Positions 1 through 40,018 of a stretch of 40,275 nt of DNA are shown in pieces (the stretch's first letter is position 1; every line of letters starts with the position of its first letter). Under the pieces are notes generated by a model that saw only the letters and a list, made by a program, of their open reading frames with translations, had not been told where the DNA came from and made no database searches. The position numbers were made by a program, and so were the translations under genes. Origin of the DNA: Bordetella parapertussis. Its GTDB lineage: Bacteria; Pseudomonadota; Gammaproteobacteria; Burkholderiales; SG8-39. Location of the stretch: positions 1 through 40,275 of the forward strand of contig CAMDFL010000023.1 of assembly GCA_945897475.1 (NCBI GenBank), read 5' to 3'.

Positions 1-389
1 TACCGGTCTTCAGCAGCGCCGCATTCCACTTTGTCACAACCAGGTGCGCAGTGTTTCTTCGGCGCGATTTGCGGCATTGGGCCGATTACTTCGCTCACAA
101 TGCTGTGATCCAGACGATGATTCCGGCCGTGCTTGTCTGGCAGAAATTCTCCGCTATCGAGAATAAGCTGACGCAATCGATAAAAGGTATCCCAATCGGG
201 CAGTGCCAGTGCAAGATCCGCGTCGAATGTCGCACGTAGCGGATCGATGTTGTATATCTCGGTCAGTATCCAATCTCTGGCCAAGGCACCCGCCAAGAAC
301 CAATCGACCCCCTCCTTGCTTGCCGATGTTGAGATGATCCTGAAGGCTCTCCTGTGAACCGGATCAATCTTTTCTGTCAGATCATGCAA
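1..389 (-). CDS. AbiEii-like nucleotidyltransferase (toxin), 3' part outside window
   Basis: The frame is open from a TTG at 389-387 to the window edge, about 129 codons. The TTG overlaps the last codons of the upstream AbiEi-like gene, the usual coupling of this pair; an ATG at 385-383 is followed at once by a stop. Visible residues include LHDLTEKIDPVHRRAF, FLAGALARDWIL and DADLALALPDWDTF, which match the start of AbiEii/AbiGii nucleotidyltransferases (GxxARD region followed by a D-x-D-like acidic motif). In this family AbiEii is the toxin of a type IV toxin-antitoxin pair. After about residue 95, near nt 105, the sequence no longer resembles the family in any of the three frames. The gene may therefore be disrupted there, or it may be a divergent member. 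Confidence 0.6.
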   Translation of the reverse strand, partial: MHDLTEKIDPVHRRAFRIISTSASKEGVDWFLAGALARDWILTEIYNIDPLRATFDADLALALPDWDTFYRLRQLILDSGEFLPDKHGRNHRLDHSIVSEVIGPMPQIAPKKHCAPGCDKVECGAAEDR

Positions 390-1416
390 GGTGGTTTTCC
401 AGAATCTTCTGGGCGGTCTCAATTGCTCTTGGATCCCCTGTCGCCATCAGGTCCGCATAGACAAGCAATGGCGGCACGTTATCTCCTTCGCCCTCATTGG
501 CAGGAAAATCCCAAAAGGGTTCAACGATTCTGACCTCTCCCTTGGGATCGGCACGCATCCGGTGCGCTTGCAGGAGCGTAACAAGGTTTGCTCTGGTGTA
601 AATCGTAATTTCCACCGGCTTCAGATACCCCGTGAGCCGAAAAGCGGCAACGTCCCCTCCCCAGAAGGCACCAAGCGGTTTCAGCTCGACGTTTTTCCAC
701 CAATCCCGATTCTCTGCATGGTAGCGGCGCACTTTGTAACGCGGCACAACCCGCAGTGCATATGCGCCTACCCAGTCCTCAATCAATTTGGGGCGGCCGC
801 GCAGATCATTTCTGCCCGCCGCCAGATTAACGAGGTACCCCATTTCCTTGAGCCGCTCCATGAGCTCCCCGACCGTACCGAGAGCCACACCCGCTGCCTT
901 GGCAATTTCCCGGTAAGGCCGGTTTAAGTACTCTGGCCGGGCGAGCAATACAAACAATACCTTCAGCCCGGCAGGATTAAACACTGTCGCCCCTTTGGGA
1001 CGGACGTGTAGCGCCCAGTCCGCAGGGGGCTCGGCACCGGCCACCCGTAAAAAAATGCCCGGGTCAGCGATGTAAGCATTTCCCACCGTGTCCAGAAACC
1101 GGATACCCGCACCCTGAAGCTGATCAGCAAGTTTCTTATTTAAATACTTTGTAATCAATAACTTACCATCTAACTCAACGCGCTTTCCGAGAAGCTTGAC
1201 CAACACGACCTGCGTGACAACCGGAATCGGATGAAAAGCATAAACGTAGTCTTTACGCCCCCCTTTGAGTCTTAACCGTAGTTGCGGTAGTTCGGCAATG
1301 GGGTCTCCGCCTTCAACCCGTAGCGTAATTTGCCCCTGGGCATGCCGACCGAGGGCCTCGCACGCCTGCTCAATGAGTGCCTTCGCATCTCCAAGATCGA
1401 CTGCTACTTCGTTCAC
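382..1416 (-). CDS. AbiEi-like antitoxin / transcriptional regulator (type IV TA)
   Basis: The protein has about 344 residues and resembles AbiEi-family antitoxins (COG4861-like). A winged-helix segment (YREIAKAAGVALGTVGELMERLKEMGYL) lies in the middle, followed by a C-terminal region with GRPKLIEDWVGAY and AFWGGDVAAFRLTGYLKP motifs. AbiEi proteins repress their own promoter and counter the AbiEii nucleotidyltransferase, and the downstream overlapping gene fits that partner. The start is chosen as GTG at 1416 because GAGAGG lies 5 nt upstream (1427-1422). A TTG at 1446 in the same frame has no visible ribosome binding site. An 11-bp inverted repeat upstream could be the operator. The family call is from motif memory only. 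Confidence 0.7.
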   Translation of the reverse strand: MNEVAVDLGDAKALIEQACEALGRHAQGQITLRVEGGDPIAELPQLRLRLKGGRKDYVYAFHPIPVVTQVVLVKLLGKRVELDGKLLITKYLNKKLADQLQGAGIRFLDTVGNAYIADPGIFLRVAGAEPPADWALHVRPKGATVFNPAGLKVLFVLLARPEYLNRPYREIAKAAGVALGTVGELMERLKEMGYLVNLAAGRNDLRGRPKLIEDWVGAYALRVVPRYKVRRYHAENRDWWKNVELKPLGAFWGGDVAAFRLTGYLKPVEITIYTRANLVTLLQAHRMRADPKGEVRIVEPFWDFPANEGEGDNVPPLLVYADLMATGDPRAIETAQKILENHLA

Positions 1417-1487
1417 CGAAACCTCTCGTCCAATAAATTTGAACAACAGAATAATTTGAACACAAGATCAACATCACCGCATATCAA

Positions 1488-1523: not shown

Positions 1524-1753
1524 ATAAATAAAATTGAACGAAATCCTGACAAAAACCGCTGATCCCTCTAGGCAAATGGGGCACGAACATCGGATGAGCG
1601 AATGTTTCGAAACCCGTTTCCAATCTATAAAAATCATAACAATCAATCACCTTTAACCTTTCCATGGGGCAGTTGCGCCTCTTAACGAGCAAGAGATTTG
1701 AGAAATATCCAACGGATCTGTCCGTTGGAACGCATCTGATGTCGCTGATCCGG

Positions 1754-1866
1754 GATCCTTTTGAGCGGATATTCCGAGGACAAATCGACATTAGTGTCGA
1801 TTTGTCCCGGCGCGATCCTCCCTGTTTGGGGGGATATTGGGGGGGCAATCTGACATCGATGTCAGA
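1754..1866. repeat. Left flank of the palindrome array (variant repeat class)
   Basis: A variant conserved block (GATCCTTTTGAGCGGATATT, then CCGAG) occupies 1754-1778. A 30-bp palindrome follows (1778-1807, 13-bp arms GGACAAATCGACA / TGTCGATTTGTCC around TTAG), then a block ending GGGGGGATATTGGGGGGG, then the 18-bp perfect palindrome TCTGACATCGATGTCAGA (1849-1866). A close relative of the first block recurs at 2317-2343. Confidence 0.7.
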
Positions 1867-1872
1867 CTGTCC

Positions 1873-2235
1873 GGCGGAGTCACCCTATTTTTGGGGGGCA
1901 CTCCAAGCACTTTTCTAGGGGTGCGTTACACCCCTACGGCGGAGTCATCCTACTTTTGGGGGGCACTCCAAGAACCCGTCGGACATGTCCGACGACCTGC
2001 CAGGAGGAGTCACCCTATTTTTGAGGGGGCACTCCAAGTGTTAACCGTTAACATTTGCTCTATCCTATGGCGGAGTCACCCTACTTTTGAGGGGGCACTC
2101 CAAGCATGCACCGTGTGAGATGTCACACGCAGTCGGCGGAGTCACCCTATTTTGGGGGGGCACTCCAAGACGGGTTTTGGGTGGACATTTTGCCCACTCG
2201 GTGGAGTCTCCCTGTTTTTGGGGGGATATTCGGAG
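1873..2235. repeat. Regular core of the array: six 35-36 bp repeats with exact 30-bp slots
   Basis: Repeats lie at 1873-1907, 1938-1972, 2003-2038, 2069-2104, 2135-2169 and 2200-2235. The five intervening slots (1908-1937, 1973-2002, 2039-2068, 2105-2134, 2170-2199) are each exactly 30 bp. The repeat begins GGCGGAGTCACCC, has a T-run, then a G-run, and ends CACTCCAAG. GGAGT/ACTCC and CCCT/AGGG make it an imperfect hairpin itself. The sixth repeat has a changed right half ending GGATATTCGGAG. Each slot contains its own palindrome: 8-bp arms TAGGGGTG/CACCCCTA, CGTCGGACATGTCCGACG, TGTTAACCGTTAACA, CGTGTGA/TCACACG, and an imperfect GTGGACA/TGCCCAC. The geometry imitates a CRISPR array, but palindromic slots argue against that. 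Confidence 0.85.
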
Positions 2236-2398
2236 CTGTAAAGCGACACCGGTGTCGCTTTGAGGGGGTATTTGGAGAGCGTTGGACATTGACCAACTCC
2301 AGACCTGCCCGGAACCGATCTCTTTTTGAGTGGATATTCCGAGCAAAACAAACGGGGTTAACCGTTACCCCCCCTTTTTTGACGTGGATATGTGAGAG
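2236..2398. repeat. Degenerate middle part of the palindrome array
   Basis: It contains the perfect 22-bp palindrome at 2240-2261 (arms AAAGCGACACC / GGTGTCGCTTT), a partial right-half repeat (GAGGGGGTATTTGGAG), an imperfect palindrome at 2281-2297, the variant block at 2317-2343, a GTTAAC-type palindrome at 2354-2371 and another right-half relative (GACGTGGATATGTGAGAG). The 65-66 bp periodicity is lost here. Confidence 0.65.
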
Positions 2399-2409
2399 TT
2401 AAACCTACA

Positions 2410-2467
2410 GGACAAATAAACATCGATGTCTATTTGTCCACCCCGAAGCCAGTGCCCCGAGCAGCGC
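2410..2467. repeat. Palindrome plus tail module, copy 1
   Basis: A 30-bp palindrome with one mismatched pair (2410-2439, arm start GGACAAATA) is followed by the tail ACCCCGAAGCC and then GTGCCCCGAGCAGC. A second copy starts exactly 200 bp downstream. Confidence 0.75.
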
Positions 2468-2528
2468 TGAGTGCGTATTTCACGTCATCGTGACCGGTGA
2501 TTTCGCCGTATCGTGACCGCCGTTTCGC

Positions 2529-2564
2529 GGCGGAGTCACCCTCTTTTTGAGGGCACACTCCAAG
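2529..2564. repeat. Isolated seventh copy of the array repeat
   Basis: This 36-bp copy begins GGCGGAGTCACCC and ends CACTCCAAG. Its centre is a perfect hairpin, CCCTC-TTTTT-GAGGG, showing that the repeat unit itself is hairpin-forming. It overlaps the palindrome 2517-2533 (CCGCCG/CGGCGG) and is followed directly by the palindrome at 2565. Confidence 0.75.
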
Positions 2565-2593
2565 AAAAGTGAGACAAAATGTCTCACTTTTTT
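2565..2593. terminator. Terminator-like hairpin inside the array
   Basis: AAAAGTGAGACA / TGTCTCACTTTT are perfect 12-bp arms around AAA, followed by further T residues. It would serve as a bidirectional intrinsic terminator if the region is transcribed. Its stem also belongs to the GACA...TGTC family of array palindromes, so the resemblance may be incidental. Confidence 0.4.
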
Positions 2594-2609
2594 AGGTGGA
2601 TTTCCGACG

Positions 2610-2667
2610 GAACAAATGGACATTGATGTCCATTTGTTCACCCCGAAACCTGTGCCCAGAGCAGCAA
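2610..2667. repeat. Palindrome plus tail module, copy 2
   Basis: A perfect 30-bp palindrome (14-bp arms GAACAAATGGACAT / ATGTCCATTTGTTC around TG) is followed by ACCCCGAAACC and GTGCCCAGAGCAGC, matching the tail of copy 1. Arm bases that differ from copy 1 are changed on both sides. Confidence 0.75.
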
Positions 2668-2858
2668 GGAACCTCCCGCTGACCGCCTTTAGCGGACGGA
2701 TTCCCGGGAACCCGCGCCACCGTCTTTAGGGGGGCCGATAGACGCCTATTGGGGCATACCAAGGCGATGGAGTATCACAAGTTTGATATGAGTAGCAGGC
2801 TGTGTTAACCCGTTAACACGAAGTATGTTATTGTTTTATATAGTTTTTTCGCATTTCA

Positions 2859-3001
2859 CTGATAGTCAAATCGAACCCGAACTGAACGTATGGAGGGCGC
2901 TTAAATTCTCGAATTGGTCATGTTTTGGATTTTTGAAAAGCGTACATCATCGATTATGTTCAAATCCTGTGTTTGCCGATGCCCGATCCCGGGGTTAATG
3001 G
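2859..3001. mobile_element. IS91-like end repeat, copy 1
   Basis: It begins CTGATAGTCAAATCGAACCC and includes ACATCATCGATTATG. It is near-identical to 37295-37438 over about 140 bp and to 39917-40018 over about 100 bp. The third copy directly abuts the stop codon of an IS91-like transposase, so this is read as a solo end or remnant of that element family. All three copies share one orientation. No transposase is left at this copy. Confidence 0.6.
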
Positions 3002-3235
3002 GTAAGGCCTTGATGCGATGGTCCCACTATTACCGCTTCGAAGCCCTCGAATGAGCGCCATGGTCGGGTTCCAACTGTCGAATCGAGGTCTGGCATAGAG
3101 GGTTAGAGCCGGCCAATCTTCCATGACGTATGGTTGGCTTGGTGGCTAAAGTGCTTTTCCACCCCCATCTTTGTATTCCCACCCGGGCCTGCTTCGGCGG
3201 CCCCGCAGACTTGTCAGGAGATCAGCATTGCCAAA
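3002..3235. other. Leader region of the first dapA-like gene, no gene seen
   Basis: No gene was recognised. It holds the ribosome binding site AGGAG at 3216-3220. An open frame upstream of the dapA-like gene (from 3134) has no family similarity and is not taken as coding. Confidence 0.5.
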
Positions 3236-4168
3236 ATGCGCGTCGAGGGCTCGTTCGTGGCAACCATCACCCCGTTCAACGAGAACGGCTCGGTCGATTT
3301 TGGCGCCTTCCGCACCCTGCTCAAATTCCAGGAGGATCACGGCAGCGTTGCCGTGCTGTTCATGGGCTCGACCGGCGAGCCCTCGTTGCTCCTGCCCGAG
3401 GAGAAAAAACAGCTGGTGGTCGAGACCGCGAAAATGAAAACCGGGAAGGTGAAATTCTTCTACGGCTGCACCGGCAACACCCCCGACCAGGTCATCGATA
3501 ACGTCAAGTGGGTGAAGGCCAACGGCAGCGACGGCGCAATCATCGCGGCACCGCCCTATATCTGCGCAGCGGAAGACGATATCGAGCGCTTCTATTTCGA
3601 CGTGGCCGACGCCACCGATCTGCCTTTGGGCATTTATAACAATCCGCCGCGCGTAAAGACCGATCTGCACTGGGATCACCTGCTGCGCATTTTCAAGCAC
3701 CCGAATTTCGTCATCCACAAGGAATCCACCAAGCCCGTGTGCCACGTGGCGCAGATTCTTGCAGCGCGGCCCGATGTCACGGTGATGTGCTGCGATGCGC
3801 CCGCGCTGGGATTGGTGGTGCCGACCATGAGCCTGGGCGGCCATGGCACCGCCAACATGGGCGGAAACCTGATCCCCGCCGAAATGGCGACCATCTCGAC
3901 ACCCTGGAAGTCCTACCAGGATGCGGAGAACTTCAAGAAAACTTACCCGGCGATGCTGCCGCTCCTGCACTACAACTATTCGGCGATCAATCCGGTGGCG
4001 GTAAAGAGCCTGATGCGCGCGCTCGGGCTTACGGTCGGTGCGCTACGCAAACCGCTGCGCAATCTGGAGGGCGAAGCCCTATCCAAGGGTGTGCGCATCG
4101 TGCAGGAACTTGGTCTTGACAAGAAGTACGGCTACGCGGTGCAGGCCAAGCTGGCCAAGGTGGCCTGA
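3236..4168 (+). CDS. Dihydrodipicolinate synthase-family aldolase/lyase (DapA-like), copy 1
   Basis: The protein has 310 residues and the DapA/NAL (class I aldolase) fold signature. GSTGE is at 44-48, the catalytic tyrosine in GIYNNPP is Tyr134, and the Schiff-base lysine in VIHKES is Lys162, close to the E. coli DapA numbering. The family forms or splits C-C bonds using pyruvate or related oxo acids. Members placed beside Bug binding proteins are usually catabolic rather than lysine-biosynthetic, and the Bug gene follows after 81 bp. It closely resembles the copy at 28536-29477. Start problem: the paralog's ATG-GCC-AAA is ATT-GCC-AAA here (3227), and the first ATG is codon 4 of that frame, 15 nt from AGGAG. 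The true start is either ATT 3227 or ATG 3236. Confidence 0.88.
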   Translation: MRVEGSFVATITPFNENGSVDFGAFRTLLKFQEDHGSVAVLFMGSTGEPSLLLPEEKKQLVVETAKMKTGKVKFFYGCTGNTPDQVIDNVKWVKANGSDGAIIAAPPYICAAEDDIERFYFDVADATDLPLGIYNNPPRVKTDLHWDHLLRIFKHPNFVIHKESTKPVCHVAQILAARPDVTVMCCDAPALGLVVPTMSLGGHGTANMGGNLIPAEMATISTPWKSYQDAENFKKTYPAMLPLLHYNYSAINPVAVKSLMRALGLTVGALRKPLRNLEGEALSKGVRIVQELGLDKKYGYAVQAKLAKVA

Positions 4169-37136: not shown

Positions 37137-37294
37137 GCGCAGGCGGCCGGGCCTGGCGACAAGGGTGAGCCAGAGCTACCGTTACGGACTGCCCAAGGTG
37201 ATGGCCGCGATGTCGCGGGTGTCGGCGGGCCGACCGGATCAAAACTGGCCGGGTCGTCGGACAACATATTTAGGAGGCGACATGCGCGAGATAA

Positions 37295-37438
37295 CTGATA
37301 GTCAAATCGAACCCGAGCTGAACGTATGGCGGCAGCTGAATTTCTCCAATGGGCCATGTTTTGGACTTTTGAAAAACGTACATCATCGATTATGTTCAAT
37401 ACTCAGGTTTGCCCATGCCCGAATTCGGTTTTAATGAG
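37295..37438. mobile_element. IS91-like end repeat, copy 2
   Basis: It starts CTGATAGTCAAATCGAACCC, like copy 1, and matches it for about 140 bp including GTTTGCC(C/G)ATGCCCGA and TTAATG. Compared with copy 3 it diverges immediately after CGATTATG. It lies in the 375-bp gap between Bug 4 and Bug 5, which holds no gene. Confidence 0.65.
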
Positions 37439-39744: not shown

Positions 39745-39916
39745 GGGTTATGTCCTCGTTGCGAAAGTGGCGTGATTGCCTGCGCGCAATGATATCGGGT
39801 GGTCATGGAGTCGGCAGGCACCACCCGCCAGCACAGAATCCAGACGCCTCCCCTCGATACCCGCTTCGTTATGGATCTGCCGGATGAACTCCAGCCCTGC
39901 TTCAACGGCTGGGCGA

Positions 39917-40018
39917 CTAATAGTCAAATCGAATCCGAACTGAACGTATGGCGGCAGCTAAATTTCTCCAAGGGGCCATGTTTTGGGCTTTTGAAAAAGC
40001 GCACATCATCGATTATGC
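39917..40018. mobile_element. IS91-like end repeat, copy 3, next to its transposase
   Basis: It starts CTAATAGTCAAATCG and runs to CGATTATG, where the stop codon of the minus-strand transposase (40015-40013) is embedded. This links the repeat to the 3' end of that transposase. The stretch 39745-39916 holds no gene I can assign. Confidence 0.7.

Follow-up and report, generated by a model that had tools for sequence, protein, structure and literature searches.

A non-coding stretch of 1.1 kb beside the abiE genes of the window (the whole stretch of DNA analyzed here, 40,275 nucleotides, which makes up an entire 40-kb contig of a 4.6-Mb MAG) consists of a conserved hairpin repeat alternating with 30-bp slots of unrelated palindromes. 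The architecture of this array, the length of its slots, the excess of palindromes, the compensatory changes within them, the turnover of slots and the linkage to one AbiEi clade are demonstrated by the observations described below. From these sequence comparisons we tentatively favor an abiE-linked tandem array of two kinds of hairpin that would function as a single strand, most likely as a transcribed non-coding RNA serving the abiE module.

Repeat searches and a covariance model located ten repeats of 35-36 bp on the plus strand, at positions 1743-2343 and 2529-2564 of the window. Six core repeats (W3 to W8, at 1873-1907, 1938-1972, 2003-2038, 2069-2104, 2135-2169 and 2200-2235) enclose five consecutive slots of exactly 30 bp each (S1, 1908-1937; S2, 1973-2002; S3, 2039-2068; D, 2105-2134; and E, 2170-2199), and the original prediction of six repeats and five exact slots within 1873-2235 was confirmed. 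W3 forms a GGAGT...ACTCC hairpin with a T-rich loop, and W8 is a hybrid of both repeat types. Weaker copies start at 1743 (W1, a degenerate repeat of the GGATATTCCGAG type, 1743-1778), 1808 (W2, also degenerate, 1808-1843) and 2308 (W9, with the GGAA...TTCC stem form, 2308-2343), and a further strong copy at 2529-2564 (W10) carries the CCCTC-TTTTT-GAGGG fold. The slots associated with the weaker repeats W1 and W2, namely B (1778-1807) and C (1843-1872), also measure 30 bp.

An inverted repeat was present in all five core slots, as had been predicted, with one imperfect and one weak case. Slot S1 holds TAGGGGTG-CGTTA-CACCCCTA, S2 holds CGTCGGACATGTCCGACG, S3 holds TGTTAACCGTTAACA, which is A/T-rich and thermodynamically weak, D holds CGTGTGA-GATG-TCACACG, and E holds the imperfect palindrome GTGGACA-TTT-TGCCCAC; slot B is a near-perfect palindrome (GGACAAATCGACATTAGTGTCGATTTGTCC) and slot C is likewise palindromic. 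The mean identity of the core repeats is 91%, whereas that of six slots is only 44%, against 42% for shuffled slots, and each slot therefore has a palindrome of its own. The centre of the palindrome differs from slot to slot within the 30 bp. Across the array as a whole, the repeat sequence diverges strongly.

Additional palindromes extend the array on both sides of the core, at 1708-1729 (the abiE-proximal TCCAACGGATCTGTCCGTTGGA), 2240-2261 (the perfect palindrome AAAGCGACACCGGTGTCGCTTT, with a half repeat after it), 2281-2297 (F), 2354-2372 (H, GGGGTTAACCGTTACCCC), 2410-2439 (I), 2563-2593 (N), 2610-2639 and, most distally, 2696-2715, 2735-2752, 2772-2789 and 2802-2819. Three palindromes are exactly 30 bp long (1778-1807, 2410-2439 and 2610-2639). 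When arms of at least 7, at most one mismatch and a loop of at most 6 were allowed, 16 non-overlapping palindromes were counted in 1709-2819. Across 33 further stretches of the same 1.1-kb size in the window, the number ranged from 2 to 8 and averaged about 3.7. Requiring arms of at least 9 left 8 palindromes in the array region and 0-2 in these stretches. These numbers agree with the earlier estimate of about 16 palindromes, three of them of 30 bp. The earlier delimitation of all of 1709-2819 as array stands with respect to the palindromes but not for 2472-2530 (plus strand), a solo IS21-like element end inserted in the array that is not one of its units. No other copy of the array contains this end, and no transposase gene accompanies it; in the same-genus genome G002, where relatives of the element look intact, the same end lies next to a gene that combines a putative HTH with an integrase core of the rve type.

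The array sits in a 1.8-kb gap between the antitoxin gene abiEi (AbiEi_2; 382-1446, minus strand), its conserved neighbor, and a DHDPS-family gene (3227-4168, plus strand), and lies upstream of the abiEi promoter region. In the window, the toxin gene abiEii is cut short, its 5' part occupying 1-381 on the minus strand, and the array is still present; positions 1-91 are sequence interrupting abiEii, and similarity to the intact gene of the orthologous locus L203 stops at position 92. The abiEi promoter region contains, at 1486-1520, the inverted repeat TGTTCATTATT...AATAATGAACA, and related TGTWCATTATTAATGWACA motifs were observed upstream of several other AbiEi genes (L217, L229). This inverted repeat is likely the AbiEi operator, separate from and unlike the slots. 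On the other side, a dispersed repeat of about 150 bp adjoins the array at 2850-3006 and recurs at 37293-37400 and 39916-40005, with copies of roughly 90% identity on five or more further contigs of this genome (C295, C79, C194, C174 and C44) and one copy in the relative G036. From 3108 onward, the window can be aligned with the same-genus genomes G001 and G002; what precedes this point in those genomes does not match the abiE-array region, suggesting an insertion. No tRNA was found. No clear promoter or terminator was seen to drive the array, promoter-like sites occurring at chance level and terminator-like sites slightly above it.

Altogether, four array loci were found, and each adjoins abiE genes. 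Apart from the window, these are L203, a 3.4-kb contig of the beta-proteobacterial MAG Kiruna2_bin-3108, with an intact abiEii and an AbiEi 98% identical to that of the window; G099:C25, from the Burkholderiales MAG RH-20apr16-384 of another family, with an AbiEi of 49% identity; and G000:C17, in the window's own genome, where a remnant of one repeat and one palindrome adjoins an abiEii fragment. The orthologous array of L203 comprises seven repeats whose starts lie 65-67 bp apart; its slots measure 29-32 bp, four of them exactly 30 bp. The G099 array was missed by the first covariance model (R1); with model R3, its three repeats, which start 68 and 65 bp apart and enclose palindromic slots of different sequence, scored 36.5, 35.7 and 31.0 bits. 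The direction of the array relative to abiE is the same in the window, L203 and C17 and is opposite in G099, a difference that speaks against the array being simply the leader of the abiE transcript.

The distribution of the array is narrow. Among 399 genomes of the order, the repeat is present only in G000 and G099, and a single clade (support 100/99) unites the AbiEi proteins encoded beside the arrays of the window, L203 and G099; at 40-odd other AbiEi loci of the order and class, neither a repeat match nor a dense upstream palindrome cluster was detected. The window's own genome contains no array units besides the abiE remnant at C17, and its 30-mer palindromes have no other occurrence there. 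Stricter repeat patterns gave no match in 85,000 species genomes and viral contigs, blastn gave none against phages and plasmids, an exact 14-mer scan of viral contigs returned only single chance matches, and no relatives of AbiEi or AbiEii were found in viral contigs. The single matches of covariance model R2 in other genomes (E 0.02-1) were mostly due to chance, with no second repeat and no palindromes, C17 being the real match amongst them. Pattern matches in the family of G099, other than the array, fell within apparent coding sequence.

The arrays fold far better than their shuffled versions on either strand, with z values of about -6 for the window and L203 and of -2.5 and -2.2 for the two strands of G099. 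Individual slots likewise form better folds than shuffled versions of themselves (p about 4e-13 by Fisher's method, combined over 14 slots), the weak ones being S3, E and F; in L203, the stem of slot E is lost. Among seven palindromes of 30 bp treated as a family, 97.8% of cells are paired, compared to 30-40% with the partner slid, and pair column 9/22 displays all four Watson-Crick pairs (TA, AT, CG and GC). The folding of the repeat was likewise corroborated, and its hairpin covaries too: 79% of the cells are paired versus 35-61% when slid, with G-C, A-T and G-T at columns 7/31 and the stem forms GGAG/CTCC and GGAA/TTCC. G-T versus A-C mismatches would point to opposite strands for the repeats and for the slots, and neither they nor the folding single out one strand.

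Changes in slot stems between the window and L203 are mostly pair-preserving. In slot B (L203:619-648), a T-A pair is replaced by G-C and a C-G pair by T-A; in slot C (L203:553-582), C-G is replaced by G-C and an A-C mismatch is repaired to T-A. The remaining stem changes are one-sided transitions. Palindrome N and its homolog in C17 differ by three double changes (GTGAGACA/TGTCTCAC vs GCAGGACA/TGTCCTGC). Orthologous and homologous slots together contain six Watson-Crick-to-Watson-Crick double changes and no pair-breaking double changes, while random placement of the same substitutions gave a mean of 1.35 and reached six or more in 10 of 200000 trials (about 5e-5); the three double changes between the window and L203 alone were matched in 1197 of 200000 placements. 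The compensatory double changes in homologous slots therefore indicate that hairpin formation is maintained, and what is preserved in the slots appears to be the folded shape, not the sequence. The original prediction that the arms differ yet stay complementary, with the symmetry itself being kept, thus gained support at independent loci, and the homologous loci, looked at for non-palindromic slots, did not overturn it.

The slots also turn over. S1 to S3 of the window, the first with no counterpart found in L203, stand against one unrelated, also palindromic, slot there, so the number of units differs, and the palindrome at 2240-2261 is extra relative to L203. Palindrome F (L203:297-314) and the distal palindromes at 2696-2715, 2735-2752 and 2772-2789 are common to both. 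The differing sets indicate that slots have been gained and lost with the repeats staying alike.

Under the reading that we tentatively favor, the 35-36-bp repeat would form a hairpin with a T-rich loop (A-rich on the other strand) that is kept mainly by sequence, and the 30-bp slots would be kept by shape, each folding back on itself with letters free to change in pairs. The array would work in single-stranded form, most likely as a non-coding transcript folded into a chain of hairpins, in which the repeat hairpins could be a protein-binding or processing signal and the slot hairpins interchangeable double-stranded arms. Counting against this reading are the equal folding of the two strands, the mismatches that point to different strands for repeats and slots, the reversed direction in G099, the weakness of some slots, the persistence of the array beside a truncated abiEii and the lack of a clear promoter or terminator. 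The chain would serve the abiE module, an association that, like a purely mutational origin of the covariation, was absent from the original prediction. Speculatively, the array RNA might be a ligand or decoy for the nucleotidyltransferase toxin AbiEii, because MenT relatives of AbiEii extend tRNA acceptor stems (PMC10435456). The further proposal of a new class of non-coding array belonging to one type IV toxin-antitoxin (AbiE) clade, with fixed-length slots refilled with unrelated hairpins between constant repeats, and with hairpin RNA or single-stranded DNA setting AbiE activity as a ligand, decoy or sensor, we consider unlikely.

The strongest rival to a functional array is an origin by mutation with no selected function, in which template switching (quasipalindrome correction) makes palindromes and copies arm onto arm, and unequal recombination between repeats gains or loses units. 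Template switching has been documented to generate stems that pair perfectly as well as compensatory changes of several bases, and it can imitate covariation due to selection (PMC8794818). The adjacent double changes (pairs 8-9 of slot B and the three pairs of N versus C17) resemble tract copying, the number of units differs between the window and L203, and some slots have decayed, all of which such a process could produce. It leaves unexplained, however, the fixed 30-bp slot length in two genomes, the varying palindrome centres within the slots, the retention in two families beside one AbiEi clade and the absence at the 40-odd other abiE loci. On balance, we find a neutral account of the array somewhat unlikely.

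The original prediction had offered three roles, namely a structured RNA, a multi-operator array and a foldable substrate for a recombinase; the first and last are both still viable because both strands of the array fold equally well, and the operator role is disfavored. As foldable DNA, single-stranded or cruciform units would be substrates for a hairpin-recognizing enzyme of the HUH transposase or tyrosine-recombinase type, and the symmetry would be kept by cutting, binding or exchange. The equal folding of the strands, the turnover of slots between close relatives with the repeats staying alike and the ability of the array to flip relative to abiE would suit such a substrate. No recombinase or transposase gene adjoins the array, however, its units are not scattered through the genome beyond the one abiE remnant, and the IS21-like end is confined to the window copy, L203 having the array without it; this account is, in our judgment, distinctly doubtful.

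An array of operators for one or several dimeric repressors, AbiEi included, appears improbable. AbiEi relatives do bind inverted repeats in their own promoters, of which two or four 23-bp sites are known (PMC7319586), and the palindromes here are likewise inverted repeats upstream of abiEi, many with an inner GACA...TGTC. The array, in contrast, spans 1.1 kb upstream of the promoter region instead of overlapping it, its slots are unrelated rather than of shared sequence, and the likely AbiEi operator near 1486-1520 is separate and unlike them. The GACA...TGTC motif, earlier described as shared, is indeed common in the window genome and L203 but is absent from the G099 array; its GACA-to-TGTC spacing varies from 0 to 4, and none of the 30-mer palindromes recurs elsewhere in the genome.

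A CRISPR-like array with spacers palindromic by chance, taken up from structured DNA or RNA, is largely refuted and highly improbable: the 36 + 30 bp spacing, the near-identical direct repeats, the unrelated slots of constant length and their turnover do resemble one, but no cas1 was found in the genome (92% complete), phages, plasmids, viral contigs and the own genome yielded neither exact nor similar protospacers for the tested slots, the repeat degenerates within one array, and the slots, rather than being foreign-derived and free of internal symmetry, are palindromes with compensatory changes between orthologs.

None of the known repeat families tested fits the array, which fails the defining tests of CRISPR, REP/BIME, type III antitoxin RNA, AbiEi operators and all Rfam families. 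With REP, BIME and REPIN sequences it shares short, extragenic, linker-separated palindromes, often in tandem, that can fold as RNA or single-stranded DNA. Those elements are, however, one sequence family dispersed in high copy with a GTAG-type tag, whereas here the palindromes are mutually unrelated, confined to abiE loci and set in fixed 30-bp slots between a conserved repeat, and no such tag was seen beside each palindrome when the array sequence was read. Nor does a TnpA-REP transposase gene, as associated with REP elements, adjoin the array. Type III toxin-antitoxin RNAs (ToxI, antiQ) are tandem structured repeats of 35-36 nt beside a defense toxin gene, which the array resembles; they immediately precede a type III toxin gene and share its orientation, whereas the neighbors here are the type IV AbiEi and AbiEii, no type III toxin is present, and the direction of the array relative to the operon is not fixed. 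Rfam covariance models gave no match above threshold, and loose searches gave only weak, implausible matches; the covariation of stem pairs between homologs that marks structured RNAs is present.

To our knowledge, no array has been described in which fixed-length slots hold covarying palindromes unrelated to one another, and no description of arrays of variable palindromes was found in the part of the literature covered. Even if neutral, the array, with several orthologous stems and slots of fixed length, would be an unusually clean natural record of palindromes made and kept by template switching. The AbiE toxin-antitoxin system, which is widespread and acts against phages, has been described in terms of two proteins and a promoter. 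An array of covarying hairpins associated with a single AbiE clade would indicate either a nucleic-acid partner or a new structure-keeping repeat, and the former, if true, would add a nucleic-acid component to a system regarded as protein-only.
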